Of a stretch of 64,000 nucleotides of DNA, positions 3,977-51,195 are shown in pieces. This DNA comes from Cinnamomum chago (taxonomy: Eukaryota; Streptophyta; Magnoliopsida; Laurales; Lauraceae), in NCBI GenBank assembly GCA_038049695.1, contig CP142455.1, forward strand, positions 64,755,501-64,819,500. The letters are read 5' to 3'. Each line of letters opens with the position of its first letter. Positions within the stretch are counted from its first letter, which is position 1. The notes under the pieces are model-generated. The model saw only the letters and a list, made by a program, of their open reading frames with translations, had not been told where the DNA came from and ran no database searches. The translations under genes and the position numbers were made by a program.

Positions 3977-5130
3977 TCATATCCGTGATATCAATGTATA
4001 AGCGTTTTCTCCATGTGATTCCTCAACGTTAGTGTCACGCTCTACTTGGGCATCATCCTTTAAAAATTGTGAAAATAATTGATCCTCCATATCCTCTTTC
4101 CTAATAAAATTATGCATCACCATTGCAGCAACTACGATGCTCCGTTGTACAGGAAATGGGTAAGGAGCCATCCACTTGAGGATAGGGAATCGAGCTTTCA
4201 ATACTCCAAAACTTCCCTCGATCACATTCCTTAAGGATGAATACAATCTATTTAAATGCTCCTCTCTAGTAGGAGGAATGGTAACACCTTCAAAATCTGG
4301 AAGCCAATATCGGACATTTCGAAATGGAGAAAGAAACCCCCCACATGTTTGTATAACCAGCATCAATCAAGTAGTATTTACCTAAAGACCATTCAAGACA
4401 AATATTAAAGGTCATGTCAAACTATGTTATAGCAATCATTTGTTGAGATTTAAAGCACTACAAATACTTTCTTACCCGGTGGGACATGTGGAAACTTTAG
4501 CCTTTCATCAGAAATGGTATCTAAGAGAATCCGTTGATCATGAGCTGTACCTTCCCATCCACATACCACATAAGTAAAGAGCATGTCAAACGAACATGCT
4601 GCCATAACTTGTTGCAAACATTCCCCCTTTCTACCTCTGCAAGGAATTTGTTTCTCTTGTTGAATAATGGCATGTACAATGGTGCCATCTAAAGAACCAA
4701 TACAATCCTATTAAAAAGAAGATGTTAACATTGAATTTAGCTTAAATAAAAAAGTGTTGTCAAGGAAAGAGAGAAATACCTTAAAATATGGCTCAAAAGT
4801 CAAAACGTGGATTCAAAAGAATTTTCTTAGGCACTGTATCTAGTGGAGGTGGCGCTTTATCATATATTTCGCAAATCTCATCATTGCTATCAGTACCTGA
4901 CGGAAGTGTTTATGAATAGTTTCCCTTGAGTGTTGGAATCTATCTTGTATCACTCTATTCGTATGGGCGTGAGCAATGACCATCATGAACATAGCCAACT
5001 ACTCATCCACAAGTATATATCTGTTGTCTTTAAGTAAATTCTTTGATCTAAAATACATGCATAAACCCCGAAACACATGTTGTTCCATACGTAATAGCTG
5101 ATGACAAATAATGGGGTTCCCATTCAAAAT
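3977..5130 (-). pseudogene. PIF/Harbinger DDE transposase pseudogene
   Basis: Read on the minus strand. The N-terminal part (about 5120-4880) has the motif CHQLLRMEQHVFRGL and then IAHAHTNRVIQDRFQHSRET, characteristic of plant PIF/Harbinger transposases. The catalytic core follows at about 4710-4480: DCIGSLDGT gives the first Asp and GTAHDQRIL the second. The last part (4366-3977) has SLRNVIEGSFGVLKARFPIL with the third acidic residue (E of VIEG). The parts are separated by two intron-like stretches, at least one stop (about 4993), and a frame change near 4337 at a run of six G just after the GYTNMWG region. The enzyme cannot be made intact from this copy. The family normally cuts and pastes DNA at TWA sites in the nucleus. 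Confidence 0.88.
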
Positions 5131-7200: not shown

Positions 7201-8750
7201 ATGGGCGAAGGATCATCAGAGACCCTACAACCACCATCAGTATTGCCGCCAGTCCCTCACCAGAGCAAATTCGGGGCAAAATCTGCGCGATGAGCGTGGA
7301 AGGGCCTGAGACTCAGTCAAGTTCATCATCGTGAGGGGTGACGGCACCTCCCCGGCAAGATGATCTACTACTGGGGTATCCCCGACAAGATAAATCTCCA
7401 GAGCCAATTAAGTCACATCAATCCCATCACCGGACTGATGGCGATGACGATAACAATCCATTCCTCACGGATATCAGGGTCCAAAACCTTGTTATCTAAG
7501 AGCAGGATGAATTGATTCGTCAACTCCAGCAGCAGCTCTGGGAGAAGACGAAGGCCCCGACTCCACCCCCTAGATGCAACCGAGCTCCTTCGGTTGAACA
7601 GGATTTGAGGCACACCTTGGATAACAAGAGGTGGGACTGAGCTTACGACGAGGGCTCGAGTAGCAGCCACTTGGATGATGACTCAAAGAGGCTGAAGTAG
7701 AGATCAGAGGACAATAATGACTTGAGAGAATGGCTGGACCGACAAGTCAAACAAACAATCCAGTGGAACATGGAGGTGGTTGGTTTCACCCGAGATCGGC
7801 TAAACGCCTATGACATTGAGGATCTCAGCACATCTCCCTTCTTTCAGGAAATAAGGATATTTTCTCTCCCTGAAAAGTTCAGCGTCTCGAGGTTCATTCT
7901 TTACGACGGGACTTCAGATCCAGCAGCACACCTCCGGCACTTTACTCAGAGAATGTCGGTATGGGGCGACATAGGTCACCTGAACTGTAGAGTGTTCTCT
8001 TCCAGTTTAGGGGACCTTGCCCTCAGGTGGTTCTGCGCACTTCCAGAGGGGTCAATTTCGAGCTGGCGGCAGCTTCAAAATTCCTTCGTGGAAAAATTCC
8101 AAGCTCACAAGGTCATCCCCAAGACGGACGATGACCTGATGGCCATCAGGATGAGGTGGATCGAGAACATCACTCAGTTCGCCAAAAGGTTTTGGACTAT
8201 TTATAACCAAGTCGAAGATGCCACAAACAGGGTGGAAATCATGTCCTTCAAACAAGCTCTACTACAAGGCAATGAGCTTCGCAAGGACCTGGTTTGGTTC
8301 CTCGTGGTCACGGTGAAAGCACTGATGGCCAGGGTGAGTCGGTTCATTGAACAAAAGGAAGATGAGGCTCAAGCTCGCGAAAGCTTTGGCCTTTGGCAGG
8401 AAGATAGAGCCTCCAGGAGAGACAAGAAATCATCTAGGAAGGAGGAAGTCCGAAACGGGTCATCAACTAGCTCGGCAATGGTCTTGGCCTCCACCTCGGG
8501 GGGCAGAAAGAAGTCCAAACCAATTACAGCCTCCTATAAGCCTGTAAACACAATATTTAAGGAGCCAATCCACAAGCTCCTCGGCAGGATCAAGTCACCG
8601 CCGTTCTTTAAGTAGCCGTCGCTAAGGAAGGGTGATCCTTCCACCCAGGATTAGAACAAGTTATGTGCCTATCACAAGCAAAATGGGCACAAAATCGAAT
8701 ATTGTAAGACCTTCAAGTCCCACCTCGAGGAGCTCGTCAGGATGGACACT
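7201..8750 (+). pseudogene. Tat-lineage gag, broken
   Basis: An ATG at 7201 opens a short frame that soon stops. The readable core is 7722-8615 (297 codons). It has the Gypsy gag signature: FILYDGTSDPAAHLRHFTQR near residue 60, then CRVFSSSLGDLALRWFCALP, then WRQLQNSFVEKFQAH. Past the stop at 8613, another frame at about 8660-8750 has CAYHKQNGHKIEYC, the zinc-knuckle-like motif of this lineage. Gag forms the cytoplasmic particle in intact elements. Here the N-terminus is out of frame and the 3' part is interrupted, so it is dead. Confidence 0.85.
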
Positions 8751-24657: not shown

Positions 24658-25722
24658 AAAGGCATTGGAAAGCTTTGAATTTCATAGAGTTGAACTAATT
24701 TTTAGCTTAGTGTACTTTTTATCTTTCCTTTATTTTCCTTGCGGATTCTACACATTATTTGTGTTTGTTTTGTAGGAAATTTCTCAATTAGAGTGAAGGA
24801 AAGTGGAAAAGCGCATTGGAGAACTTGAAGATTTTATTTGCTTCCTAGTTTAGAATTAGTTTAGACATTTATTTGCTTTCTTATTATCAAAGTTGTAATA
24901 ATTTTGGTTGCGGGTCGGCCCGTGACCCATTTACTTTACTTAACACACTTTACTTGCTTTAAGTAGTTAGTTGTTTAAGTAGTATTGTAATAAATTACTT
25001 GTAGGGAAGGAGGACGGTTGGACTATACCGTCGCGGCCCCTCACATTTGTACACGGAAATTGGTGTTCGTGGTGTGAGTCGACAACAATTGATTCCTCCC
25101 CCGAAATAAATCGGGAGGTTTGCATTTCCTAACCCCCGCGAATCCCTTGCAAGCGGGTTTACTTTGTTGGTTGCTCCTTGCTTTATAGTGTAATTTTTCC
25201 AAATACACTTGTAATTTGGTGCACTACTAGTAAAGGGCAAATTACCCCAACAAGATAAGGATTCGGATTTCATCACCGTTTTCTTTCCCTTAGGATTTCA
25301 TCTTAATTCTCACTTAGTTTAGAACCAATAAACCATAATAAAATTGAGTAGAAACGTGATCTTAGGTTACGAGCTCACTAGGGAAGACCATTGTGGTTGT
25401 GCCAATTGTGTGCCTTGGTGGAATTTCTGGTGCCTAAGCAAACCTTGTCCCTTGGCACCATCTTGCCAAATAGGGAGACAACTTTGTTGTTCGAGGAGTT
25501 GGTTTTTAAGAGGCGCCTTCGCCTAGAGCGTCGTGATCCCACCATCTACCTGGGGGTTAACTGGCTAGAATTTCCGTTTCATAGGTTCAGGTTGAAGGCC
25601 AGAGTGTCATCTTCACAGTTAGGAGCTGTCTAGAATTCTTTTAGGTAACCTTAGTTTAGATTAGCTTTTCATTTAGTTTTCACACTTTTTGTTGTGTTGC
25701 ATTCATTTCATTAAGTGGACCA
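24658..25722 (+). other. Untranslated leader of the Athila-like element
   Basis: About 1.06 kb between primer site and gag. ORFs here (such as 24995-25276 minus and 25344-25526) show no family. Long leaders are usual in Athila elements. Confidence 0.7.
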
Positions 25723-28700
25723 TTGCATTACTGGGTTAGTCGCAGTTGTATGCAAGTGTGGATACGTGATCAAGGCCGATTAGTGAGGATTGATTACCTT
25801 GCCTTACCCGCCCCACCCACAGTACCCACAATGGCTGCTCAAAACCCTCAGCAAAGGACCCTTAATGAACTATTTGCACCATTCTCATCCACTTCACCTA
25901 GCTGTATAGTTTTGCCAGAGAATAATGCAAACCAATTTGAGATTCGGCCCGCCACCATCAACATGTTACCAAAATTCCATGGATCCGAGTGTGAGCAGCC
26001 CTATATTCATGTGAACAAATTTCTGACCATCTGCCACACGTTTAAGAATCAAAATTTGAATAGTGAAGCTATGAAGCTTAGGTTGTTTCCCCTCTCACTA
26101 GAAGATCATGCAGCCGCTTGGCTGAATTCCTTGACTCCAAACTCCATTACCACCTGGGATGAGCTTGTGAAAAAGTTTATGTCCAAATTTTTTCCAGTAA
26201 GTAAAACTGAGCAGTTTAGGAGTGCCATCAGGAACTTTAAGGGACGACTCGAGGAAGAGTTTTCCGAAACCTGGGAGAGATTTCATGACCTATTGATCAA
26301 ATGCCCACATCATGGGATTGACAAAGGAGAGTTGATACATTTCTTTTATAGAGGTCTTACAAACCCCCAGCGTATCTTGATTGAATCAATGCATAAAGGA
26401 GAATTCATGAATCAAACTGCCGATCAAGCATACGAATTCCTTGTCAAGCTTGCAGAAAATTCACAAAATTGGAGCAGTAGTAGGAAAGACTTAGAGAGAG
26501 ATGAGATAGGGATCCAGAAGCCTAGAATGTACAACATCAAACAAGACCCTGAGTTGAAAAATGTGATGACCAATTTAGTTCAAGGAGTGGAAAATTTGAG
26601 CAAAAAGATAGGATCTATGTCTGTAATGTCATGCCAACCCACCCCTCAGCAACATGAGTCCACCTTGAGAAGTATGGGCGAACCGCATCATGTTTGTGTG
26701 TTATGGGATAGTTGTGAGCACATGGTTGAGAGTTGCCCTAGTCTACCATTTGCCAAGGCCGAGCAAGCCAATGCGCTGAATTCCTACGGAAACTTTCGGA
26801 AACCAACTGTTAACACTTTCAGTCAGACCTACCACCCAGACAATAGGTTTCACCCCAATTTCTCATACCGTCAAGCCGAGCCTATTCAGTCCCAAGGAGG
26901 TCAGCCCGGATTCCAACCGCAGTATCCTAGGCAGCAATACCAGCAACCTGCTCAAACTAGTCATCCCATAGTTCCTCATCCTCAGCAAGCCATACAGCAG
27001 AATCAGTTCCAACCACAGAACCAATGTAGGGCACTAGTCCCAGATCAGATGCCTAACTACTCTACACCAGCACAAGTCCCTCAGCAATCCTCTCATCTGG
27101 AGAACCTGTTGACCAAATTCATTCAAATCCAAGAGCAGACTAACCAGGCCCAGAACCAGTCCATTGCAAAACTAGAGGCCCAATTAGGTCAGCTCACCTT
27201 ACAGTTGTCCGAGATAGAAAAGGGCCAATTCCCGAGCCAAACCATTCCTAACCCAAAAGGGCAGCCCAATCAGCCCAGAGGCCAGTGTTCGGTAGAGAAT
27301 AATGAGCATGTGCAGGCGATCCATACATTGAGATCAGGAAAGATTGTTGACAATAGAGTTGAGATGCCTGAGGAGGATCAAAGAGAGAAGATTTTTTTAG
27401 GAAAACCAGAGAGTTCGAAGAAAGTTGTCGAACCCGAGAGAGAGAATGTGAAGAAAGATTTGAAAGAGAATGTAGAAAGAGAAAAAGTGAAAGAGAGAGG
27501 AGAATCTATACCAAGAGGAGACGCACAGAGAGAGCAGATTCAGAAGCCCATTGTAGTTGACCCATCATCCTCAGAAGGGGTACCTAGAGCACCACTCCCA
27601 CACCGATTAAAAGAGACTAGGAAGAAGGATCACTTTGAGGGAATCTTAGAAGTTTTCAAAAATGTCCAAATAAACATACCCCTCCTTGATGCCATAAAGC
27701 AAATTCCTTCCTACTCCAAGTTTTTGAAAGACTTGACCACTGTCAAGCGGAAAACATCAGTACCCAGAACCGTTGTGATGGCAGCCCAAGCATCAGGGTT
27801 GATCCAGCAGACCATTGCGCCCAAATACAAAGACCCTGGCTACCCTACCATTACCATTCAGATAGGAGACTCCGTCATGGAGAGGTGTCTCCTTGATCTT
27901 GGGGCAAGCGTGAATTTACTGCCATACTCCGTGTACACGCAGTTAGGCCTGGGAGAGCTGAAGAAGACTGATATTACCCTTTGTCTTGCTGATAGGTCAG
28001 TCAAGTATCCAAAAGGTGTGGTTGAAGATGTGATCCTAAAAGTTAAGGATTTTTATTTTCCAGTTGATTTTGTGGTTCTAGATACCGAACCAGTGGCAGC
28101 CCCCGACTGACATATTCCTGTCATTCTTGGTCGACCGTTCCTTGCAACATCAGATGCAGTGATTAGATGCAGGAATGGGGTTGTGACACTTAGTTTCGGG
28201 AACATGAAGTTGGAGTTAAATGTTTTTCGTAACGGACTCCAAACATCAGACCTAGATGATGATGAGGAAGTCAACATGATTGACACATTAGTTGATCAAA
28301 CAGTTCAACTATCATGTTACACAAATCTGCTGGAGGAATGTTTGGCTCACTTCAATGCCAACATAGATGTTGACAGGTCCATATGCGAAGTTAATGCATT
28401 ATTGGATTCAACCCAGCCGATGGATGTTGGCCAATGGAAGCAGAAAATTAAGCCTATCTTTAAATCCACCTCTGAATCTAAGGTCGAAAAAGAATCAGTT
28501 ATTGTTGAGCCACCCAAGTTAGAATTGGAACTATTACCCGAAAATTTTAAGTATGCCTACTTGGGGCCCTCTGCTAGTAACCCAGTAATTATTGCCTCAG
28601 ACCTTGAGGAAGAGCAGGAAAAGAAATTACTGGATGTGTTGAAAGACCATCAGAGTGCCCTAGGTTGGACCATCTCGGACATTAAAGGAATCAATCCATC

Positions 28701-30738: not shown

Positions 30739-31557
30739 TGATGAGTGTTAAATATTGCATATTTTACCCCTCATTAGTCTGAGTTTTATCAACATCTCAT
30801 ATGCATATCAATTGCCTTACACAGAGATTTTATCATTCTATCACATTAACGGATTATCGGATTATCATTTATAAATCTGATTATTTGTAGCGCATTTATG
30901 TAATTTCTCTTGTGTAGGTGGACCTCGCAACTATCCCAACCTTCCGGCTAGTGTCCCAAGCCATCAAGAAGAGATTTCAATAAAGAAATTACATGAAGAA
31001 ATCTTAGGGAGTGTTGAAGAATTCCAAAATAAGAGGAGAAAACTTTATGGATAAAAGAAGTCATTTTCTAACACAAAGGATTGGTTGGTGTAGTGGTTGG
31101 AGCTTGGGTTGGTATAGAATAGGTTATGGGTTCAAATCCTAACAATTGCATATTATTATTTTTTTTCCATCCAACTCACCTCTCCATGTGAAAGGATATG
31201 AGCCAATCAAAAGCTTCCAAGTTGGAGGACCACATAAAGCAAAAGGCACATATGCTTTTGGAAGGAAAGTTTGTTGCAACCAATCAAATTGAAGCTATCC
31301 ATGTGAAAAAAAAGAGCCAATGAAAAGCCTCCAAGTTGAATTCAAGCAATCCATGTGAAAGCAAATAAGCCAATCAAAAGCCTTCAAGTTACAACTAATC
31401 AAATGGAAGCAATCCTTGTGAAATGAAATGAGCCAATCAAATGTCTTTAATGTTTCTATAAATTAGAATGTTTTTGTAGAGTGAGGGGGATCTTTTGGCA
31501 AGTTAGTCTTCTTGCAATTTTATTTTTTACTCTTAGATTGTAATTAGGAGCTACTTT
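30739..31557 (+). repeat. 3' LTR of the Athila-like element, left half
   Basis: 819 bp matching 22849-23667 with one difference noted. It is cut by the CACTA element after 'gagctactt' with target TTT at 31555-31557. Confidence 0.95.
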
Positions 31558-31579
31558 CACTACTAGAAAACTGAGTATT

Positions 31580-31672
31580 GGCGCGTCAAAAACGCGGGCG
31601 GCCGCCTGAGGCGGTCGCAAAAGAGGCCATTAGCGACCGCCATAGGCGGCCGCAAGGCGGTCGCTAAAAGTT
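31580..31672. repeat. Left subterminal repeats of the CACTA element
   Basis: Repeated forms of GCGGTCGC, TTAGCGACCGCC and GGCGGCCGC. Such motifs are where CACTA TNPA proteins bind in known elements. Confidence 0.85.
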
Positions 31673-31784
31673 TTCACTTCACTACCTTCCCACTTCTGTT
31701 TTGCCTTTTTCCTTCTCCCGCTCTGCTCCCGCGCTCAACCCTTCCCAGCGATTTTTCCCTCACTCTCCTAGCGATTTTTTCCCT

Positions 31785-31788
<4 letters not shown>

Positions 31789-31842
<54 letters not shown>
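31789..31842. repeat. (CT)n microsatellite in a CT-rich leader
   Basis: About 26 CT units sit in a 200-bp pyrimidine-rich stretch (31690-31900), like the 5' leader of a plant gene. An intron-like donor 'ggaaag|gtcaga' follows near 31992. Confidence 0.9.
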
Positions 31843-31844
<2 letters not shown>

Positions 31845-31992
31845 CACTCTCTCCCCCTCCCTCCCTCTCCCTCTCCCTCTCCCTCTCGCTCTGCCCTCGC
31901 TCCCGCGCGCCGGAGCCGTTGCTGACGAGGTGCTGTAACAGCTCCCCTTCTCCGAAATCCTCTCCATTGAGAAGATCTCTCTGGGCGGAAAG

Positions 31993-34900
31993 GTCAGAAC
32001 TTTCTCCATGTGCGGATTCGTTTTCCTATTGATTTGGGTGTTGTTTTGGGTTTCTGTTGTTGTTCTTCATTTGAGTTGAGCCGATGAGAGTGTAATGGAG
32101 ATTTGTCGGCCTCATTTGAGGTCTTCTTGTTATTATTTATGGTTTCTGTTATTGATTTGGTTTTGAAGTGTTTGGAGTGAAATTTTTGAGATTTCTGATT
32201 TCACATTTTGAGGTTTCACAAAATTTTTGAGTTTTGTTCTAAAACCCTATCTTCGTTACTCTATAAATCCCACCTCACAGACGCCTTTTTCTTCTCTTCC
32301 CCTTTCATTTCTCCACTCCAGGTTTGCTACGAAACCCTAAAATCTCTCTCTCTCTCTCCCCCTTTCTTCTTCGTTTATCTTCTCATGATTTTGATTTTGA
32401 TTTTTGATTTTGACTTTTCTTTTAGAGATTGTAGATCTTATAAGCAAGACAGCTTCTTTGTTTGGATCTAGTTACAATTCAGACAAACATTTACCTGACC
32501 TTGAGATTGAAATAGCAAGTTAGGAAAATGTTATTTAACAATCTACTGTTATAAGCCTACTTGCCCTGTGATGGATGTTGCAATGTTCACATGCATTACC
32601 TTTTTGCTGTGTACATATGTGCAAAGGAAATGTCATATGTAACTGTTGGGCGTCAAGCTAATCCATGGTATGACTTACGTTGAGTTGTTGAATGTCATAT
32701 GTAACTGTTGAAACTTAGTGTTGCAAATTTTTCTTTTTCATTTTTTTTTTTTAATGAAGAGGTGAGATGGCTCTTACCTGCAACATTCTAGTTGCAACAA
32801 TGAGTACCTTCCAATTGGGGTACTGCATATGTCAATTGTTCCTAGTTACATGTGTTTTGAAAAGTTGTTTTGCCATGATAAGAAAATCCCTATGATCCTA
32901 AGATAAAAGTTTCTCGTGAAAGGTTGGTGAATATTTGTACAGAGATTTCCAAACTCGCATCCAGAGTTATGGGATTGGGCATATCAAATCAGTTAACCCA
33001 CAGGTCAACAAAACAGTGGCAAAAAGGAAGAACCATCACTTGAATACACATGTTGGCACTTTCTCATGATTTCTCAGGCCCTTTAAAATCTGGAACATTA
33101 TCATTACATGAATGCATGCATGTATTCATTCATGTATATATCTCAGTTTTTTGTTTTAATCATCCACATCTTTATTTAAAGTTCTTGCTTTTGGTGTTTC
33201 TACATTTTTTTTTGTTATCTTCTTAGCTTCATCATATTCCCAAAAAGCCAACAGAGGGCATATGCAACCGCACTCTGTCCCAAAACCATAAATCATAAAT
33301 GTTTCGTGGCAATTTCTTCGTTTGCAAGATGAAAAGATTATGATTTCCAATTTACTCGTCCCTCACTCAGAGTGAATGATATGGGGATCTCAGGGACACA
33401 TGGTTGGAATACATTGCTCTTATTTTCTATTTTCAGCTTTTGATTTCATAAGATACTGTTTCTTTTCCATTTATGTGGTTGTTGGATCAAATTGATTGAT
33501 GACATGCAGTTATGGGTGATGATTACCCGTGGATGAAAATAGAACCTGACCATCTTTAGATGTGTAACTTGGGCCTGCTCAAACCAAAAACCCAGATTGC
33601 CTGGTGGTTGTTGGTTTTGCCAGATTTGGTTTCCAATCTTGCTTGGGCCTGAATTGAACACACATTGAATTTTGTTCTGGCTCTGCTTTGTTCATGCATC
33701 TCATCTTTAGAACTATTCTTCCACCATAAAATCTGTCTTACAAATGGAAAGCAAGATTTGTAGTTCTTGCATTGTTCCTTTTTTAGATTCACCTAACCCA
33801 CTCATTGATTCCTGCAGTATCTTCTCTTCCCTTTTCTTATGCCCCTTTTGAATTTCATTCTATACACAGTATACAGGTGAGTAGTCTGTGGAATTGGAGT
33901 CTGTTTTGGTCAAAGAAGCAGGTGTTGTTCAGACCAATTTCAGGTGGGTTTTAGAGAATCCATGGTTTTGGTGGTGCCTTATGATGATATGTTCCGTTCT
34001 TCAAAATGCGGTGGGTTTTTTTGGATTTTTCAGAGAAGACAAGGATATTTTTTTCTTTTCTTTTTTTTTTTTTTTGCACGTTTTGGTTCTTATTTTTTTT
34101 TTTTTGGGTTGGAAATGAGTCGGTAATGATGCATGATTAGAGTTTTAAACAAACTCAGCCATGTTTTCACTGTGTAAATTTAAATTTTACATGAAAAGTG
34201 TGTTGGAAATGAATCAATGATGAATGATGATGAATAGAATCTTAAACTAACTCACACCTGTTGTCACTGTGTGTATATTTGAATTTCATGTGAAAAGTGT
34301 GTAGAAATAATTTATATAAACGGTGGGTTTTATTTTAATCTTTTTGAAGTTGTGATTAGTTAAGAAGAAAGATTGTTGTGACTTTATGTTGGTACGGGAG
34401 AGAATCAGGTTCTGAGTTCTAAAAATGGCTTTTGAGAATGATTTTGGATACTATTCTAAAAATAGTAGTACTGAAGAGGCAAGCAGGGTAGGTATTCACC
34501 TCCCATCAAAGGAGAGATTTTTTTTTTTTTTTATGACCACTTATGTATCTTCCCCTTTGTTACCTTTCAGTCATGGAAAAGGCGTTGACTATATAGTAGG
34601 CGAGTCGAAAGTAGCCAAGCTTGAGCTTTTCTTGAAAAATTAAACAAATCCTCTCGAGCTCAAGCCAACCTTGTCCCAGCATGACCTTGGCTTGAATTAA
34701 GTGAAGCTGCCCATGGAATTACTGAGCTAAAGAGCATGCATATCAAGTTTGTGCTCAAGTTAATGCAACTCAAGCATATTGAATGTAGTGAGATTCTCTC
34801 CATGTGGAGTTCACTCTTGATTACCAAAAACTACTCTGGGGGTTCACTCTTAGTTACAAAAAAACCAAGAGAATGAAAGGGACAAGAGGCATAGATGCAT

Positions 34901-37683
34901 AGATCAAGAATAGAAAAGGTCAGACAAACTGGATCTCAGTAGGTGTAGTTTTTAAGATGGCAAAGTTAAATTAACATCAACAGTAAAAAAAAAAAACAAT
35001 GAAAACAAGATCACTCATATATTTTTTGGTTGATTAGAGACGTCAACACAAGATGGTCCTCTTATGAGGATATGATCATTTACCATTCTAATGTAATCTC
35101 ATTATTCTTCAAAAAATCATGATTGAACTTATCTATCAAGTTGATAATATGATATAACATTCTCCAAAGACATGGTATTTTGCGTATTTATATATTTATG
35201 ATATGCAGACACATAACCAGTTACCAAGCTGAGCTTGAATAGAGTCAAGGTTAGATGGACCTAGATTTTGGTCTGGGCATCTCCTGAGACAACGAGCTGA
35301 ACTGGAAGCTAGCTTGGCTGGTTGGCAGCCCTGATTCTAACTCTATCCCTGATTTTTTTTTTTAATTTTATCTTCTCATATTTCCATATTTTTGTGATCT
35401 GATTTAAATGTGGTGTAGATGATTAGACTCATTATGTTCATACATGAATCTTATATTATGAATGTTTATGTTAGAGGCTGATGAGCAATGGCTTAACAGA
35501 AGCACCTTATATTATGAATGTTTATGTTAGAGGCTGATGAGCACCTCTCATGCCTGATTTCAATATTTCATGTTTTCCACAGATATTAGAAGCTTCCATA
35601 TAATCTTTCTTTTCTCTTAATGTTGCATTGGAAATCTATAAAATTTTCATTCATTCTCAATTTGATTCTGATCAAACCAATATCTTCTCTCAGTACTGAA
35701 AGTATTTAAACATGCTGTGAGATTGACAATGGTCTAATTCTTTTACATTGTACAAGTTTAATATTAATACCATTCACATTGTAAGGCCTTAGGCCTCAGT
35801 TAAAAGACTTGGCTTGTTCTACTATCCACCTTTTTTTCTGTTTAATCATTGTGCATCGGAATCCAAGAATTGTTGTGCACACACTGCATCTGTGTAGACG
35901 AAAATTATGAGTAGAATTAGAAACAATGAGGATTCACCTTGGCACTGTTTTGATGAAAATTTTTTAGTTCAGGAGTTTTTTTTTTTTTCTAGTCCTTGTA
36001 ACTCTGTTTTCATGTGTGAATTGAGAAATCTCAGTCTTTCCTGTGTACTTTCCTTTGCAAGCACAGCCCATCAAGGCACTTCACTTTATTGGTAAAAAGG
36101 AAAAGGCAAAAGCCACAGCACTCTTTGCTTTTCCACCCAAAATACCATTGAACACACACATCCCCCTTTCCCTTTGATCGCTTGTCCAAATGGAGCGATG
36201 ATTCCCATGCACAACTTTATAATATAAATCTTAGATTATAGGCCCTCCATTGTAAATTCCAAGGCATGCCTTGAATGATGTATGTTTCTAGCAATTAAAA
36301 TATCTAGCAAATGATCTCTTTGTAATATTGTTAATCCCCAAGAAGCTGCTCCTAGGAACTATCCCCACTGTATGCTTCTATACCTTGTCTTCCTTTAGTA
36401 ACATGACAAATGCCAGAGTGTAGGATTCCTTTACAATGAGGGTAAAGGAAAGAAGAAACAAAAAAAAAAAAAAAAATTGTAATGTATGGTTTTGTACAGG
36501 TGTATGGGTATAGGATATATAGAAAGCTGTCATAGTATTAAACTAATATTGTGAGATTTGTAGTATTGGTTGTTCCGAAATTGTTTTAGTGAATTTGATG
36601 ATTGTGGCAAGTCCAAAGGATGATCATCTTTTCCCTCATATGGCTTTCTCAAGTATGAAATTGTTTTCTATAGAAATGTTGTTTGAATCACCTTCCCAAC
36701 TAACCATGCCCAGTAGTGTGCTTTTGAACAGCCTAGCCCTCCCTGTTTGCTTCTTTCAATTTTGGTAACTAGATTGAAGCAGTGTAACTTGAACTAGATT
36801 TAGGAAAAGTGTTCGCAGCAAACTATGAAAAATGTTTTCCATGGAAAAGCTTCTACTTTTCATTTTTGTTTCTACAAAAAAAAAAAAAAAAAAAAAAAGT
36901 TATGCAAAAGTGCCCTCTGTGTTTGCTTCTTTTAATTGGAAATTAGATTGAAGCATCACACCACAAGTACCCAAAAAGGAGTGGGGCAAAAAGCACGAAA
37001 CTGGACTTCACTGCTCATTTCATTTTCCAAAAGCAGTATTTTATTTTATTGGTTTCTTTGGTGTGTGTGTGTGTTGCTGACAGTACGTCAAAATTGGCTA
37101 TTAACCACACAAACCAGCCGGGCGCCTGAGATCACGTCATTCATGTCCGATGAGGTATATAAACTTTGGTTGTTTGTTCATTTTAGTCAATTTATTGTAT
37201 TGTGGTTACGTCACTCTTTAAATGTTATGTGTTTGAAAGGCGATGGTTTCCGGCGATTGGTAGTTCGAAGGATTATACATTGAAGCAATACCTTATATTT
37301 TCAGAGAAGTTGCAGACAAAAGCAATGGTTAGGTTTGTGATTCTGTACTGATTACTAAGAGGTTTCTTATGATTCTCATTTTCGCATTTTGGATTCCTTT
37401 TAAAATAAGTTTAATGAGAAATTGCGATTTTGTTTATTAGATGCAGGGGAAATGAATTTATATTAATGAAAGGAGCATTTGATTTCTTTCGCTTAATTGG
37501 CTGGTCTCCACTGTAGGTATGAAATTCCAAGAAGGAAATTTCACCACTTAATTTATGCTAGATTTCAGGTTCAAGCTCAGTTTTAACAGAGCTTGAAACT
37601 GAAAAGTAGGCTTTCAATACAAGTAACAGATATCTCTGTTCTCCCTCAGGTGAATCTGAATCTAGTGCTTGATTCCATTACAG
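31993..37683 (+). other. CACTA interior, intron-like, without a recognised product
   Basis: AT-rich with T runs and A runs, and plant 5'-leader words ('aaaccctaaaatctctctct' at 32331). A possible start MAFENDFGYYSKNSSTEEAS at 34425 is followed by a stretch without a known domain. The look is of several introns and unidentified exons from captured genes. I cannot name the source. Confidence 0.45.
35450..35543 (+). repeat. Tandem duplication, period 56 bp
   Basis: 'cttatattatgaatgtttat' plus 'gttagaggctgatgagca' occurs at 35450-35487 and 35506-35543. Confidence 0.95.
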
Positions 37684-37773
37684 GTCATGTGGTCGACGTT
37701 TGTTCCCTTTATTCCCAACAGCATTTTGCCTGGGCTCCTCGCATTCATTGCAGCAGTGGCTGCTGTTGTTATG
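37684..37773 (+). pseudogene. Captured exon, hydrophobic, source unknown
   Basis: A 90-base exon bounded by 'attacag' and 'gtaagc', exactly 30 codons. It encodes VMWSTFVPFIPNSILPGLLA then FIAAVAAVVM, a likely membrane helix. I do not recognise the family. It lies upstream of the topoisomerase fragment in the same orientation. Confidence 0.5.
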
Positions 37774-38381
37774 GTAAGCCTTTTTGTTTTTATATTTTTA
37801 TTGCTTTTTATGTTGATTGCTCTCATTAGTAGGATGCTTCTTCTATATGTTTAACAAATGCTAAAGGATGACATGCCTTTGTGGATTGGAGTTTGTTCTG
37901 CTTCTTGTTTGATGTGTTTGTACCATTCCCAGATCTGAATCTTGAAGATGAACCTTTCCAGCCCAAATCAGGTGAGGCAGAGTTCTCAAGTAGAAATTAG
38001 TTTGCCGGAACTTGCGTTTTGGAGAAAATACTGGCACTCTACTTTGTTTGGGTAGACAGAGAGAAGTATGGCTGATAAATTTTTTTGAATTGACTACATT
38101 TATATTAGATGAAAGTGGAAAAGAAGAAAGTCAATTGTTTTTCTTTCTGGATTCAATCTGCAATTTTCTCAACTGCTACATCATGCTGTATGTTGACCAA
38201 TTATCACTGTGGATGGTTGGCAACTAAATGCTGAGCAGAACTGCTTTTCATATGTGACAATACTGTTGGAATTATGAATTGCTGTTAGTGCTGCAAATCC
38301 ATAGTAACCTGCTGGAAAAGCAGACCCACATCTGGATGTTGTCAGTAAGCAGCATCCACTGTTGGTCTTAGGAAACCATAG

Positions 38382-38572
38382 GCGTGATGTTTGCAGTGAT
38401 GAAAGAAACGGAATATGCAACAAAGCAGAAATTTATTGACAACTTCATGAATGACTGGAAAGTGCTACTTGGCCGAAACCATGTGATTAAGAAATTTGAG
38501 CTCTGTGATTTTACCCCAATCTATGATTGGCATGAGAGGGAGAAGGAAAAGAAAAAGCAAATGAGCACCGAG
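38382..38572 (+). pseudogene. Captured exon of plant DNA topoisomerase I (core N-terminal part)
   Basis: The frame encodes MMFAVMKETEYATKQKFIDN, FMNDWKVLLGRNHVIKKFEL and CDFTPIYDWHEREKEKKKQM, the well conserved start of the eukaryotic type IB topoisomerase core. The borders are 'ccatag|gcgtg' and 'accgag|gtaaat', so intron positions were kept, meaning genomic rather than cDNA capture. The catalytic domain with the active tyrosine is absent, so no enzyme can be made. In the source gene the protein relaxes supercoils in the nucleus. Confidence 0.88.
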
Positions 38573-39001
38573 GTAAATCAAGGTTTCCTTTAATTGATTT
38601 TAGATTAGAGTAAAACAGGGAGTTGTACAGTGTAACTTGATACATATGGAACTGGTGTATGTGAACAATGAACATTAGTTTAATGATATTGACTTGTTTT
38701 ATGTCTTGGTGAAAAATAGATGTTTGTCTATGATACCTGGATACTTCAAAATTGGGAACGTATCCATATCATGTTGTCTCCTTGTTTTGTATCATTGGTT
38801 TCTTTGGCTGCCCAATCTGTGGACTTATTGCTGGCCTGGCTTGTGGGTATTTGCACTGGAACAAAATATATTCCAGTTGTGCCCTCTAGGGAAGCTTGCA
38901 TCAACAAACCAGGCCCTCATTCATTTATATTTATATTTTTTATTTTTCATTTTAACTCCCTTTTAAGCTCTATATTATGCTTTTATAATTCATAAAATGT
39001 A

Positions 39002-39191
39002 GAGAAGGAAGTAAAAAAAGAAGCAAAGATGGATCATGATGATGATCACATACCAATTTCCCAGAGAGTGAAAAAATCGGTTTCATCAGACAATCGATCC
39101 TTATCAAAGAAACCAACAAAGGTTGTCACCTCCCAATTGAAGAAAACAAACAAGAAATCAAAAAAGATTATAAAAGCTTCTAAATACTCAA
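39002..39191 (+). pseudogene. Captured N-terminal exon of DNA topoisomerase I, out of order
   Basis: It encodes EKEVKKEAKMDHDDDHIPIS, QRVKKSVSSDNRSLSKKPTK and KTNKKSKKIIKASKYSK. This is the lysine-rich, low-complexity N-terminal region of plant topoisomerase I. In the real gene it precedes the core exon, but here it lies 430 bp after it. It is followed by a duplicated 'aaggttttgggtttg'. The order shows rearrangement after or during capture. Confidence 0.75.
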
Positions 39192-39840
39192 AGTTGTTGA
39201 AGGTTTTGGGTTTGTATAAACCTTTGAAGGTTTTGGGTTTGAAGATTATATAAAGCTTTGTATGTGTTTCTGTTTAGTTTTGGGTTTTGATTGGAAGAAT
39301 CGAGGTATATGCGAGTTGTTTTATGATTTGTTCTTTTTTTTTATTTATTTATATAGAGCTTTACTATTGATTCTGTTTGTGTGTAAGCTAATTTATATTG
39401 ACTGAGTAGATGAAAAAGGCTTGGTATGCATTGATTCAGTTAGATGGTTACTGATTCAATCTGGCTGGTCTTCTTCTGTTTAAGTTTGTTATAAATTAGC
39501 TAATTCATATGTATTGAGAACTGGATTTGCAGTCGGAGATCTCTTTCTTGTATTTTGTCTCAATGGTCTATCTGCAGGCCAAACTTTGATGTCTAGGAGA
39601 TATCTGTTCTGGAAGGTTTTGAGGCTTGCTCATCCATGGATGGTTTCTGTTTGATCAACATTCTGGATGCCCAAATCATGAATTACTTGTATAGTGCATC
39701 ACATTAAGATACTGTACATATTGAAATACATCAATACACTAATTCCACTTTAATGGAATGTCTCTTGCTTAAATTGGCAGAGATACTCTGCTTGTACATT
39801 TTCCTGTTTTACTGAGTCTCTTTTGTTCTTTTCTAAACAG

Positions 39841-39932
39841 AAATTTGCTGTTAGACGAAGGGGGACGCCTGAAAATTGGTGAATATTGGATTCAAATGCT
39901 TTATGAACAAATTGACCCTTTCCAAGATTACT
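39841..39932 (+). pseudogene. Captured exon of an ILK-like protein kinase
   Basis: Between 'ctaaacag' and 'gtatgt', the exon encodes NLLLDEGGRLKIGEYWIQML then YEQIDPFQDY. NLLLDEGGxLKIGEYW is the catalytic-loop and activation-start region of plant integrin-linked-kinase-like (ankyrin) kinases, where the usual DFG is GEY. Only this subdomain is present. The donor phase matches the next exon at 40074. Confidence 0.75.
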
Positions 39933-40073
39933 GTATGTCATCTTATCAGTTAACTGCATGTAATTCTTTCATGAATAGTCAACTGCTTTGAGTTATGACC
40001 TATGTCATTGTCTTTTTTCATTTATTATTTGAGAAAATGGATCTTCAGGTGAGTAATTATCTTGTTTTTACAG

Positions 40074-40297
40074 GTCAAAGAAATGATGAGGCTGCTATCA
40101 TGGCCAATGCTCTTTACGAGGAGGATAATCTGAATAACAGATTTAAGCCAATTCAGGATCTCAGAACAGATGCAATCTTTTCGGTTGATGACGTAGTTGT
40201 TCTTTGCCCTACTTTGGATTTTGCTTTTACTGTATGGCAAAGTGCTTCAGACACAATGGTGGGTTTTGTTCCACGCATGCATTGGTTGGATGAAGAG
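40074..40297 (+). pseudogene. Chimeric captured exon: kinase segment joined to GT64 glycosyltransferase
   Basis: Spliced from 39932, the frame reads CQRNDEA, which continues the ILK-like kinase. It then becomes NLNNRFKPIQDLRTDAIFSV and FAFTVWQSASDTMVGFVPRM then HWLDEE. The second part is the EXTL2/GT64 domain of plant exostosin-like glycosyltransferases. The family DxD metal-binding motif is present only as VDDVVVL, one residue short of the usual DDD-type stretch. The exon ends at 'gaagag|gtgagc'. The donor glycosyltransferase acts in the Golgi; here only about 55 of its residues remain. The exact junction within the exon (about 40095-40125) is inferred. Confidence 0.8.
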
Positions 40298-41149
40298 GTG
40301 AGCTATTTAACATAGGTCACTATGCTGTCAAGTTATTATCACAAAAAAACTTGCATGTTGAAAGTGGTATTTGCTGCAGTTTGTTATGAAACATGTAGAT
40401 TATTTTGTTCACAGTCACATGTTTGTTCACTGCAGTTTAGAATGATTTCCAAAGACTCAAAGCTGCATCATGTTCATGTATTAATACTTTTCTTGCTTCT
40501 ATATAAATATAGGTATATTTGCTGTATGCTATGCTTCAATTGATTCATCTTTAGAAATTGTGTCTATGCATTCACATTAATATTAGGCTGCGCGTACACA
40601 CTCTATTACTGTTGGATTACTTAGTTGTAGCTGATCAACATTTGGACTAAAGACCACCGATTGTCTGTTGACTGTGCAGATCTAAATTCTTTTGAGATGT
40701 GGAAATTTGAGATGATTTGATGTGGGTTGACAAGGCGTCAAGGCCCATTGGGCTCAATCCACAGGCTCAACATGACCAACCACTTAATTAGGAGTTTTGA
40801 TATAAGCAGGAGTCTTTAAATTTCCAATTTTTATACTTATCTTTTAATATTTATTGTTCTTTTTCTATTCAGGTTTGAGAGCATCTGATATACCACGGCA
40901 TCCGGCACAGAAATTTTTTATTTTCCCTGTAATTGTAATGGATATATTTTATTGAAACTTTTGTAATGTTTTGAATACAATTAATATAAGACTTTCTTTT
41001 TTTATTTGTAATTTTAATTGATGGTAGTAGTTGTATATATTTAGGCTTTGTTATTTGTAATTTTAATTGATGGCAGTAGTTGTATATACTCAGGTACAGG
41101 TATAAAAACAAGGAAAAAATTTCAGAAAATACGGAAAAAAATTTTTTGA

Positions 41150-41577
41150 AAAAATAAAGCTTTAGCGGCCGCCAGTGGCGGTCGCTAAAAGTACTATTAG
41201 CCGTCGCTAATAGTTTCAAAAATTTTAAAAAATAATAAAAATTCAAAAAAAAATAATGTATTAGCGACCGCCAGATGAGTATTAGCGACCGCTCTGGCGG
41301 TCGCTAATACTAAAAAAAAATAAAAAAATAAAAAAAATTCAAAAAAATGAGGCATTAGCGACCGCCATATGGAGTATTAGCGACCGCCATGGCGGCCGCT
41401 AAAAGTCCAATTTTTTTTTTTAAATTTATTTGCGACCGCCATGTAGCGGTCGCTAATACCTTTAGCGACGAGCTTTTCGCGGCCGCCGCGTGGCGGTCGC
41501 TAAAGAGTATTAGCGACCGCCAATTTACTTTTAGCGACGGCAAGTGGCGGCCGCTAAAAGTCAATTTTCTAGTAGTG
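41150..41577. repeat. Right subterminal repeats of the CACTA element
   Basis: At least ten copies, in both orientations, of TTAGCGACCGCC or GGCGGTCGCTAA, separated by A-rich spacers. They match the left end. Confidence 0.9.
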
Positions 41578-41580
41578 TTT

Positions 41581-46039: not shown

Positions 46040-47890
46040 CCCTTGAGATCTCTGTTTCCCTCTTGGATAGTAGGAATAGAAGATGTGGATGGTTTGGAAG
46101 GTGTGGTTGAAGGCTGGGTAGGGAATTGGGTTGGTTGGGTGGATATAGAAGTAGGACATTGGGTTCGGTTTAGTGCAGTAGGATGGTCCAGTAGAGCTGA
46201 TGGTGGTACTACCAGTGACGAGGTATTGATGGGTTCCACAACATTAATGGGTGGGGCAGATGGCGGGTTATATGGCTAGGCAGTGGGTTGGTGAGGTGGA
46301 GTGAAAATTGAGGTGGGTAGTATGGGTGGGTCAGAAAATATCTGTTGATTGGGGGAAGTGGGCAGTGGCATAGGTATATTTGGTTTAGAAAAAGGAAAAA
46401 TATACTCATCAAAGGTTACATGGCGAGAGATGCTAATGCGGCCAGTTTGAAGATTAAGACAGCGGTACCCATGGTGTGATGCACTGTAACCCAAAAAAAC
46501 ACATTTGGCCGATCTATATACTAACTTGTGTTTATTGTAGGGCCTGAGATAAGGGTAACATAAACACCCAAAGGTTTTCAATATTGTGTAATCTGGAAGG
46601 CGATGAAATAAGATTTGAAAAGGACTCTTGTTTTGAGTGTTTGGTGATGGCAGCCTATTGATTAAAAAAATGGCAGTTTGAAAGGCTTCATCCTAGTAAC
46701 TTGACGGTATTGATGAATGAGCCATAAGAGTGAGCCCTATTTCAACCACATGGCGAGGTTTTCGCTTTCCATTTTGTTCGGGCATGTAGGGACATGATAC
46801 CCAATGTATAATTCCATTAGCCTCTAGAGTAGGCTTAAAAAAGAAATATTTCGTGCCCCCATTTGTTTGAAGATTTTTAATTTTACAACCAAACAAATTT
46901 TCAACTTGAATTTCAAAGAAGCTTTATGAGCATGGGATTTTTGAACCAGTGGATATAACCATGAAAACTTGCTAAAATCATCAATAAAGTGAATATAAAA
47001 CCAATGACCAAGATGAGATGTCACAGGGACTGGTCCCCATAAGTCAGAATGCACAAGCTCCAAAGGTGTAGTAGAAATAAAACTTGGCATACTGAAGGGT
47101 AATTTATGACATTTTCCAAGTTGACAAGAAGAACAAACAGAGGAGGACTAATTATTTTGGTGCACAAAAGGCAATTTACTTTTAGAAATAATAGAACGTA
47201 CTATACGTTCTGTAGGATGTCCAAGCCTGCTATGCCATTGTTCAAGGGACGCCTTTTCACCAATAAAGGCTTGTTTGGTTGTGATCGTTGCTGGTAGATG
47301 GTAGAGCCCGTCCTTAGTTCTGCCCCGTGGCTCGGTCCTTGATAAAAAAATCATCCACATGAAATTCACAATGAACATTGTTATCCTTTGTCAGTTGAGA
47401 TATAGATAATAAAATTTTTGTGATGTTAGGTACATGAAGAATATCCTTTAATTTTAAAGTAGACGAAGGAGTTTTGATAAATGATGCACCAATATTGGCA
47501 ATGCGCAAACTTGATCCATTTCCAACTTGCACTTGATCGTTGCCTTGATATTCAGAGTGAAGTGATAGGTTACCAAGGTTTGCGGTGATGTGGTTTGTAG
47601 CTCCAGAATCAGGTTACCAAGCTGGGTCAAAGGAGGCGATCTGACTTGATCCATGAGAGGCGACGAGGGCTTGAGCAGTTTGATCACCTTGGGCAGCATA
47701 ATCATACCTGCAATAACATGTCATTGCCGTGTGATTGGTGCGACCACAAATCTGGCATTGAACACCGCGATTGGAGAAAGGTGGCCGTGAACCTGACTGG
47801 TTGGACTGGTTTCGGCTAGAACTAGAACCAGAACCCGGCCCAAAAGGAGGATTATGTTGTGGTCCTCTCCCATGGCCTTGGCCTTGTTGT
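46040..47890 (-). pseudogene. Ty1/Copia zinc knuckle, protease and integrase, broken
   Basis: Read on the minus strand from 47890. The zinc knuckle is CQICGRTNHTAMTC. The protease start has W, a TAA stop at 47614-47616, then PDSGATNHIT (the Asp is intact). GAG-pre-integrase follows: WHSRLGHPTERIV and CSSCQLGKCHKLPF. The integrase core has LVHSDLWGP (first Asp) and FIDDFSKFSWLYPL (second Asp), then TFGCLCYPYLRPYNKHKL and KCVFLGYS. It ends in a proline- and serine-rich linker near 46040. RT and RNase H, which should follow, are missing. Several stops and frame changes interrupt it. Confidence 0.9.
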
Positions 47891-48597
47891 CCTCGTGTCA
47901 CGACCCGGGCCCGAATTACGGTTATCCCCGAGCCGTGGGCCCATACTTACTCCCGTAAATCCCGAATTAACCGGAATCCACAAGGGATATCAATCACAAT
48001 AAGCCTGTCAATTACACAATTTTGCGGAAATATTTAAACTTGACAAATATCAATTTACAATTTACATGTAGACAAAATAAAGTCCTTATACATGTATCAC
48101 TTCCATCAAAGTTTAACAATCGGTGCATATTCAACACCATACCATAAGTATTAATTACATTCCATAATGAATGTACAAAATAATTGTTCCAACGTTTCTC
48201 AAAATATTAGCGTCCTTTCTCGCACTCGGATGCCCATATCAAATGGCATTTCGTCCATTCCATTCGATTAGTCCTCCTGGAGGAACCGGAGCGGTCTCCT
48301 CCGCTGGCGCCGGGGGCGCTGCTGCACCGGTAGGGGCAATCGGGCCTGTAATGCCATTGATAACACTAATGAACATGACGGTTCAACAATGTATAAATAA
48401 ATCTTGTAATAGCACATGTTAATACATATACTAAACCCATTAAATCCATTTGGCAATACTACTATTCTAGACAATTCTAGATAATTCATGCAATAACAAT
48501 AAGTAACCTAAGAGTTAACCAATAGACATTCACTATCATAGCTTTCATTCATTTCATTTTGTTCGTTTCATTTCATTTTATCTCATTTCGTTTCCTC

Positions 48598-48659
48598 TAC
48601 CATCTTCCCTCAAGGAAGGATTCATTTAATTTACCATCTTCCCTCAAGGAAGGATTCAT
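48598..48659. repeat. Short tandem duplication, period 34 bp
   Basis: 'taccatcttccctcaaggaa' plus 'ggattcat' occurs twice in the inner solo LTR. Confidence 0.95.
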
Positions 48660-49267
48660 CTTCCAAACGGAAGGCATCAATCAATACCCATAGATATGAT
48701 TGAAATATGTGGGACTTACTAGTGTCCTGGCCAGGGACAACTAGCATCACCACGGAGCTCCGGAACGCCCCCAAATCCATCTGCGGCAGCAGGATTGTTC
48801 ATTCATTTCATTTATTAATTCATTGAACTCATTTAGAGTTCTAGTACAGTGGTTATGTTTGGAGATCAATCATCACTTCATTGTGAGTTCAATGTCAACT
48901 CAGTGTGGCTCAATAGTGAGCTTGAGGGACTGCTATGTAATGCCCTCTGAGACCAAGCATCTAAACCAAACAATAAGTGAAACGTTGGTTATCAATGCAC
49001 GTGTTATTATGGATGACATTACTTAATTTAGTTGTGCATTAGATCACCTTAGCTAACACCTATGATGGTTTAGATATCACTTATATTAGCCTTAACGAAT
49101 AGGCTTTCAATGTAAATCAGTCACCATTCACCACATAACTCATCTTAACGAGGTGGGGAGTTTCCATGATCGCATAAGCGATCTTAGTCCATGCAAAAAT
49201 CCAAAACTCACTCGGTCCTCTCAATTGGCCAAATTTTTACTCACAATCGATGTACGTTCCTGTATCC

Positions 49268-49412
49268 TATTCGCTCGAGCGAGTAAAGTTCGCTCGAGCG
49301 GACACCTCACAGAACCTTGGTCGCTCGACCGCATTTTTATGTTCGCTCGAGCGAACTGTCCAGGACGATTTTACTTTGAAACAGAACCTTGGCCGCTCGT
49401 GCGAACTGTCTA
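49268..49412. repeat. Cluster of TTCGCTCGAGCGAA palindromes in the inner LTR
   Basis: Forms include 'attcgctcgagcgag', 'gttcgctcgagcgga', 'gtcgctcgaccgc', 'gttcgctcgagcgaac' and 'ccgctcgtgcgaac', spaced by about 20-60 bases. The cluster is conserved in position with 44760-44885. Confidence 0.9.
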
Positions 49413-50477
49413 GAGTTCCAAACTCGAAAATCTGATATACTCTCTCTTCTTCTACACTCCCTTCTCCACTATTCATCCACAACATATAATAGCAATGGGA
49501 CCTCCTGTCCCCTCCTCACACATCATCCATTCACCCACCACACTTCTAATCATTTATTAACCATTCACACAACCACAATAACTCCACCATTAATGGAAAG
49601 TGCAAAAACCCATAAAATTAAATGCATTTCTACCACAACTAATGCTAATCACAAGGGATGCTTATACTTGCCTCTTATGAAGCTCAATAGCAAAAGCCCT
49701 CTTCCCTAGCTTGGCTTGACACAAGTATTTCCCCAAAACTCAAACCCTAATCCAAAAGAAACATGCAAATGAACTCCTATGAGCCATTTGTGCTAGAAAT
49801 CAACTCAAACTAACTAATAGAACTTGAAAATCCCAAAATGGGACTAACTACTTACTTGAGGTTCCAAGCAAAGGTTCCTTGAGCTCTCTTTCAAGCTTTA
49901 CTCTTCAATAATGGACAAATGACTTGGGGAAGGAGATGAAGTAGTTCTACTCTACTCCAATCACTTGACAAGTCTTCTAATCTTCACTTTAGAGGAAGAG
50001 GAAATGGAAGGAGAAGGAAGAAAGGTGTCTAGGGTTTGCTTGAAGTGAGAAATGAATGAATGATTCATTTCAATCTATTATAAGGTTCAATTTCACCAAA
50101 ACCCCCTCCTAATAAGCTTTATTACATATTGAGTCAAATGAAGCTTCACTTGGTCCATTTGAGGTCAAATGAAATCGTGTCCATTATGGAAATTAACGTA
50201 CTATTCGAGATACACGCGTTGGTATCAAGAATTTTCGTATTCGACGAAATACGTGAAAATCCGTATTTATGAGGAAGTCCTTAGTCTACTTCGATTGAGT
50301 CTAAACTCGTTCTAACCAATTCAATTTCATTTCATTATGCTTAATGCATCATTTGAGACTAATTTGTCTCCCTTTGGTCTTTAACCTTGATTAACCCATT
50401 TATCCATGCTTAATTAACATTTTTCTCAATTAATTAGCCTTAATCATGATTAGTTTGGGTCGGGGTGTAACACCTCG

Positions 50478-51195
50478 CCCACGGCTACGAGGAGGTCCAC
50501 GACCTCTACCACGTTGGGCCACATTCACAACTGGCTGGGGGACTTCAAGATGCCGTGTGTGATTATTTTCAATCTGTAGTTCATGGATAAGGAGGTAGCC
50601 ATGAAGTTCATCCAAATCAATTAGTTTGGTGCGAGTGGTGAGAGAGGTCACCAAAGCATCATATTCAGGGCCCAAACCTCCCAGAATATAAAGCAGGATC
50701 TCATCATCAGGAATACTATGACCAGCAGCAGCAAGGTGGTCAGTGATAATCTTCACTTTTTGTAGATAATCAGTGATTGAAAGTGTGCCTTTTTTTAATG
50801 TTTGAAGTTGCAACCTCAATTGCAACAGGTGGGCTCTTGAGATGAGAAGTGCTTCTCGAGTGCAGTCCAAACATCCTTGGAAGTGGACAGACCAACAACT
50901 TTGGTGTGAACACTCTCGGTAAGAGAGGCAATCAACCAACTTAGGAGAAGCTGATCCTGTAGGCAGGATTTAGCTTAGTTTTGCCAGAACCTTGAGGGTC
51001 TGAAATCATCTTTGGTGGGCATGGAGTTGTTCCATCAATATACCCAATGAGGTCGTAACCTCTAAGGATGGGCATCAACTGTGACTTCCACAGTAAATAG
51101 TTGTTTTGGTCCTGCTTTGTGGTGAGAAAGTGTTGCACATTAGGTGTTGGAGAGGAAGAAAATGAGGAAGATGATGATGGGATGAAAGATGCCAT
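50478..51195 (-). pseudogene. Ty1/Copia gag, N-terminal part, split by the solo LTR
   Basis: Minus strand from ATG at 51195: MASFIPSSSSSFSSSPTPNV, then FLTTKQDQNNYLLWKSQLMP and LIGYIDGTTPCP, the usual Copia gag start. A frame break lies near 50940. The second part has LRLQLQTLKKGTLSITDYLQ, KVKIITDHLAAAGH and ILGGLGPEYDALVTSL, then an arginine-glycine tail (GRGRGPPRSRGRG) where the Tekay-like LTR inserted. It resumes at 47890. Dead by frameshift and insertion. Confidence 0.9.

Follow-up and report, generated by a model that had tools for sequence, protein, structure and literature searches.

A probable Pack-CACTA-type element of Cinnamomum chago carries fragments from four or more host genes, including an in-frame kinase–GT64 join within one exon

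A 64,000-nt stretch of the Cinnamomum chago genome (contig CP142455.1, positions 64,755,501 to 64,819,500 of the forward strand; hereafter 'the window', from whose first letter all coordinates below are counted) contains a CACTA-type element in which a piece of a kinase gene passes in frame, and inside a single exon, into a piece of a GT64 glycosyltransferase gene. Very probably, this is a non-autonomous Pack-CACTA-type element whose cargo was taken up from at least four host genes as genomic DNA, introns included. An earlier note on this DNA had described a fusion of kinase and GT64; two unrelated host genes are indeed joined, and their join proves to be one part of a capture involving at least four.

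Boundaries and cargo of the element

That the exons lie within a CACTA element, as the earlier note had it, is borne out by inverted termini, flanking TTT triplets and subterminal arrays of GCGACCGCC-like repeats. These features are given here together with the captured fragments upstream of the kinase–GT64 exon pair:

31555..31557 (no strand): putative 3-bp target site duplication TTT, left copy; CTACTTT precedes CACTAC
31558..41577 (+): CACTA-type element of 10,020 bp, within which all captured gene fragments lie
31597..31664 (no strand): 5′ subterminal repeats, with 6 GCGACCGCC-like matches, 2 of them overlapping
37684..37773 (+): exon of maltose excess protein 1 (MEX1), 90 nt, 30 codons; borders ACAG / GTAAGC
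38372..38572 (+): all or most of a topoisomerase I core-domain exon; borders TTAG / GTAAAT
38999..39142 (+): fragment of the topoisomerase I N-terminal region, a weaker match than the other pieces
41165..41554 (no strand): 3′ subterminal repeats, with 14 GCGACCGCC-like matches
41578..41580 (no strand): putative 3-bp target site duplication TTT, right copy; TTTGTAAC comes after GTAGTG

Both ends of the element read CACTACTAGAAAA in inverted orientation—starting at 31558, with the inverse stopping at 41577—as CACTA-type TIRs do. Just two exact copies of the 12-base terminus CACTACTAGAAA are present in the window, one at 31558 on the plus strand and one at 41566-41577 on the minus strand. Allowing up to one mismatch yielded three matches in the window as compared to a mean of 0.32 in shuffled sequence, with none of 100 shuffles reaching three; the third near-match, at 25222, falls outside the element. 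The TTT found on both sides has the 3-bp length of a CACTA target site duplication and carries little information, being three T in AT-rich DNA. The window holds 22 repeats that resemble GCGACCGCC with at most one mismatch (shuffle mean, 1.32); 20 of them cluster at the two element ends on both strands, in the manner of CACTA subterminal repeats.

In a Pfam search, which a decayed copy could escape, no transposase domain was detected in any of the six frames, with stops read through, between 31700 and 41103, an interval that stops 142 bases short of the left end of the element and 474 short of the right. Lack of the transposase that marks autonomous CACTA members is what a non-autonomous element would show. 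Apart from one weak, chance-type match, the only Pfam domains to pass in this interval were GT64 and Topoisom_I_N. The element thus combines host coding DNA (from MEX1, topoisomerase I, ankyrin-kinase and GT64 genes) with no Pfam-detectable transposase, the combination that defines Pack-TYPE elements.

The captured material comprises at least five segments from at least four genes, all on the same strand between 37.7 and 40.3 kb. All 30 residues encoded by the MEX1 exon are identical to residues 243-272 of the Cinnamomum micranthum protein P0143. The topoisomerase I core exon matched Pfam Topoisom_I_N (E 2.6e-17) and is 76% identical over 67 aa to the protein P0128. The piece at 38999-39142 gave no Topoisom match in Pfam and aligned with residues 259-307 of P0128 (43% over 49 aa, E 6e-4) and with P0129 (53% over 32 aa, E 5e-4). 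The two topoisomerase I pieces stand in non-parental order, with the N-terminal piece downstream of the core exon rather than upstream as in the parent protein, which may mean that they were captured separately or that the element was rearranged internally.

Three further candidate matches were dismissed as chance: one to the mannose-6-phosphate receptor (Pfam E 0.12; PDB E 0.36-0.43), one to HTH_NDX (E 0.085) and one to DUF3915 (E 0.46). Some 6 kb of the element interior, 31700-37600, shows no recognised Pfam domain and may represent captured intron or UTR DNA or element-specific sequence.

Other mobile DNA was seen elsewhere in the window. PIF/Harbinger-type transposase-like remains lie at 3977-4707 on the minus strand (DDE_Tnp_4, E 3.5e-4 and 1.8e-3, both under the curated cut-off). 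LTR-retrotransposon gag regions were found on the plus strand at 7701-8615 (Retrotrans_gag, E 2.8e-11) and at 25660-28110 (Retrotrans_gag, E 8.7e-20), the latter leading into a stretch that resembles an aspartyl protease below threshold (E 0.002). Copia-type pieces occupy 46276-50969 on the minus strand, with SH3_retrovirus, Pol_BBD and Retrotran_gag_2 domains in three of the four frames examined.

The kinase–GT64 exon pair and its parent genes

The exon pair lies towards the 3′ end of the captured segments:

39841..39932 (+): kinase-derived exon 1, 92 nt, about 31 codons of an ankyrin-kinase gene; borders ACAG / GTATGT
39933..40073 (+): intron, apparently the kinase gene's own
40074..40297 (+): chimeric exon 2, 224 nt; borders ACAG / GTGAGC
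40074..40117 (+): kinase-derived first part of exon 2 (CQRNDEAAIMANALY; the C codon is split across the intron)
40118..40297 (+): GT64-derived second part of exon 2, 60 codons, with one Asp of the DDD motif lost; assigned by Pfam and by 61/63 identity to P0002

The exon coordinates and intact GT-AG borders are as the earlier note had given them, and so is the passage from kinase to GT64 without a stop inside one exon: once spliced, exons 1 and 2 form an open frame of 105 codons, reading NLLLDEGGRLKIGEYW, then CQRNDEAAIMANALY, then EEDNLNNRFKPIQDLRTDAIFSV, then HWLDEE, with both halves matched by known proteins. Two of its details needed revision. The kinase stretch opening exon 2 is present and is longer than the CQRNDEA first proposed, extending over CQRNDEAAIMANALY; and the kinase, initially called ILK-like, is better described as ankyrin-repeat kinase-like, with the names of its source proteins including VIK-like.

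Searches with the two halves pointed to separate parents. The best match of the kinase half was P0122, a 392-aa protein of Persea americana (E 2.1e-20; 42/46 aa identical), and that of the GT64 half was P0002, a 353-aa GT64 protein of Cinnamomum micranthum (E 1.4e-30; 61/63 aa identical). Scaled to a database of 5.77 billion proteins, these E values mean that neither half is a chance match. The GT64 part additionally matched Pfam Glyco_transf_64 (E 8.5e-19) over profile positions 60-119 of 245. Both parents are represented by complete, unfused proteins of laurel-family plants: the species of P0002, P0123 (a Cinnamomum kinase gene model, see below) and P0143 is placed in Lauraceae, to which Persea also belongs.

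With all 105 residues as the query, 311 of 346 candidate proteins scored at E ≤ 1, and each of the best 120 of these 311 carried the Pfam accession of GT64. A query limited to the first 45 residues retrieved six proteins at E ≤ 10 among seven candidates, all six with Pfam accessions of kinase and ankyrin domains.

The intron separating the two exons apparently belongs to the kinase gene itself, judging from its resemblance to a gene model. Its start aligns with P0123, and a computed alternative splice from a second donor at 39960, instead of 39933, would add nine codons in frame. The peptide read in the window through this donor, CMSSYQLTAC, also occurs in P0123, itself a predicted gene model. 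Because the intron resembles the kinase gene's own, the captured material was genomic DNA with its introns rather than a cDNA copy.

Protein alignments likewise locate the join. The last codon with kinase identity is that of the Tyr at 40115-40117, and the first with GT64 identity is the Glu codon at 40118-40120. Where the kinase would go on with Asp (GAY), Glu (GAG or GAA) stands in the GT64 parent; GA is therefore assignable to either parent and the overlap amounts to at least two bases. We infer that about 2-3 bases at the join are common to both parents, with their position being approximate as the alignment was to protein relatives (Persea, Cinnamomum). Random joins keep the frame one time in three, and we regard the in-frame join within an exon as a neat detail.

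Origin of the join and prospects of a fused product

On the favoured account, the pieces of MEX1, topoisomerase I (two pieces), ankyrin-kinase and GT64 would have been captured as genomic DNA, the kinase and GT64 pieces becoming joined by a DNA-level event during capture, possibly a template switch or end-joining. The element would have been mobilised in trans by a transposase encoded elsewhere, and, if it is transcribed, the kept splice sites would yield chimeric mRNAs, as in soybean Tgm-Express1.

The join might instead be older than the element, a fused host gene or pseudogene having been taken up in one step. A single capture event would then be enough for both pieces. A host gene with kinase and GT64 in this order was the test that the earlier note had named beforehand, and none emerged: not one of 126 proteins of up to ~500 aa (six matching the kinase half and 120 the GT64 half) matched both halves at E 1e-3 or better. 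The query length admitted proteins of up to ~500 aa, and a full-length fusion (~750 aa) falls outside that range and would escape. A fusion within range should have outscored P0002 among the best 120 of 311 matches listed, and the separate, complete parents also speak against this origin. In certain GT64 proteins with 82-90% query coverage and lower identity (such as P0005 and P0009), the alignment extends past the GT64 part into the kinase half; on its own, that half has no match at E 1e-3 in any of these proteins. We therefore consider uptake of a ready-made fusion unlikely. Likewise, two loci might have been brought together at 40118 by the assembly, given that the join is known from a single assembled window. 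Yet it sits within an otherwise complete element with matching ends, and other host fragments lie on the same strand in that element, as real capture predicts, which makes an artefact exceedingly improbable. Capture of genomic pieces by a Pack-CACTA-type element hence remains the preferred origin.

What the fused frame might be good for is a separate matter. Translation of a chimeric kinase–GT64 transcript, be it into a novel protein with a function or into a peptide that interferes, would be in keeping with the frame that is open across the join (exon 2 contains 2 and 8 stops in its two other frames), with the intact GT-AG borders and with GT64 residues that are near-unchanged relative to the host protein. 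However, recent capture explains this near-identity equally well. A GT64 enzyme would have a complete domain and a DXD-type DDD motif, which serves in metal and sugar-nucleotide binding; the captured piece covers only about a quarter of the domain, and its DDD is one Asp short, reading DDV where 99 of 102 GT64 relatives keep DDD (the site was found in 102 of the best 120 of 311 matches). Upstream, where joining was examined with the topoisomerase I core exon, a continuous frame from that exon into the kinase exon was rejected, with the direct join 38572/39841 entering a frame that stops after 13 codons; downstream, exon 2 gives V-stop when spliced to the acceptor at 40873 (the single one tried) and VSYLT-stop when left unspliced. 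Taken together, we give very little credence to a functional product.

Specifically, a working kinase–GT64 fusion enzyme appears unlikely because the frame combines merely 45 residues of a kinase domain with about a quarter of a GT64 domain, lacks one Asp of DDD and runs into stops shortly past exon 2. Where HRD and DFG are usual in active kinases, the parent P0122 reads HNN and GEY and may, for this reason, already be a pseudokinase. A chimeric mRNA, if one is transcribed, would most probably lack a function or give rise to small RNAs rather than serve as the message of a working enzyme. It is quite improbable that the element is transcribed and its kinase–GT64 exon used such that a new chimeric RNA or short protein interferes with a parent; the affected parent would be the GT64 sphingolipid mannosyltransferase or the ankyrin-kinase, with small RNAs targeting it or the product acting as its decoy.

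Relation to known gene-capturing elements

A close precedent for the multi-gene capture seen here is soybean Tgm-Express1, a 5.7-kb CACTA element with five gene fragments, inserted in intron 2 of F3H in the wp allele (PMC1947982). Its exons are spliced into many chimeric transcripts, which were cloned and for which putative chimeric open frames were described (PMC1947982). That a CACTA element can capture several genes and give chimerically spliced transcripts has thus been known since 2007. Like Tgm-Express1, the present element is of the CACTA type, holds fragments of several unrelated host genes and keeps introns and GT-AG sites (PMC1947982). The two differ in size and gene number (5.7 kb and five genes versus 10.0 kb and at least four genes), and expression was demonstrated for Tgm-Express1, whereas the present element is known from its sequence alone (PMC1947982). 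Moreover, the latter joins two genes inside one exon, an equivalent of which we did not find in the portion of the Tgm-Express1 report available (PMC1947982).

Pack-TYPE elements, including Pack-CACTA, are non-autonomous and TIR-bounded and hold coding DNA that is often derived from several loci (PMC8903248; PMC13317346; Catoni et al. 2019, cited therein), with the coding DNA of maize Pack-CACTA elements coming from a larger number of distinct loci than that of the other Pack-TYPE superfamilies (PMC8903248). The present element shares these traits—non-autonomy, TIRs and coding DNA of several loci (PMC8903248). The Pack-TYPE annotation pipeline discards singletons (PMC8903248), whereas the present element is known from a single copy in the window.

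As to how pieces come together, one proposed route is that neighbouring insertions fuse through aberrant excision or when they are re-mobilised (PMC13317346, PMC8903248). For animal Pack-TIRs, another study argues for template switching with short microhomology; this had a median of 2 bp and was present in at least one breakpoint in 67.6% of cases, and chimeric transcription is frequent among these elements (PMC8277862). The short overlap inferred for the present join would resemble such breakpoints. Pack-TIRs are animal elements (PMC8277862), whereas ours is from a plant and its join was compared with the parents at the protein level.

Among the literature matches listed, none was related, judged by title, to CACTA gene capture in Lauraceae. 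What we describe is a clear case, apparently in the magnoliid laurel lineage, of exons from unrelated genes being brought together by a CACTA element, and a join inside an exon with both splice sites and the frame intact constitutes raw material of exon shuffling. The element fits the Pack-CACTA/Pack-TYPE class, the principle of which is already known, and adds to it a lineage and a clean junction usable for studying how captured pieces join.
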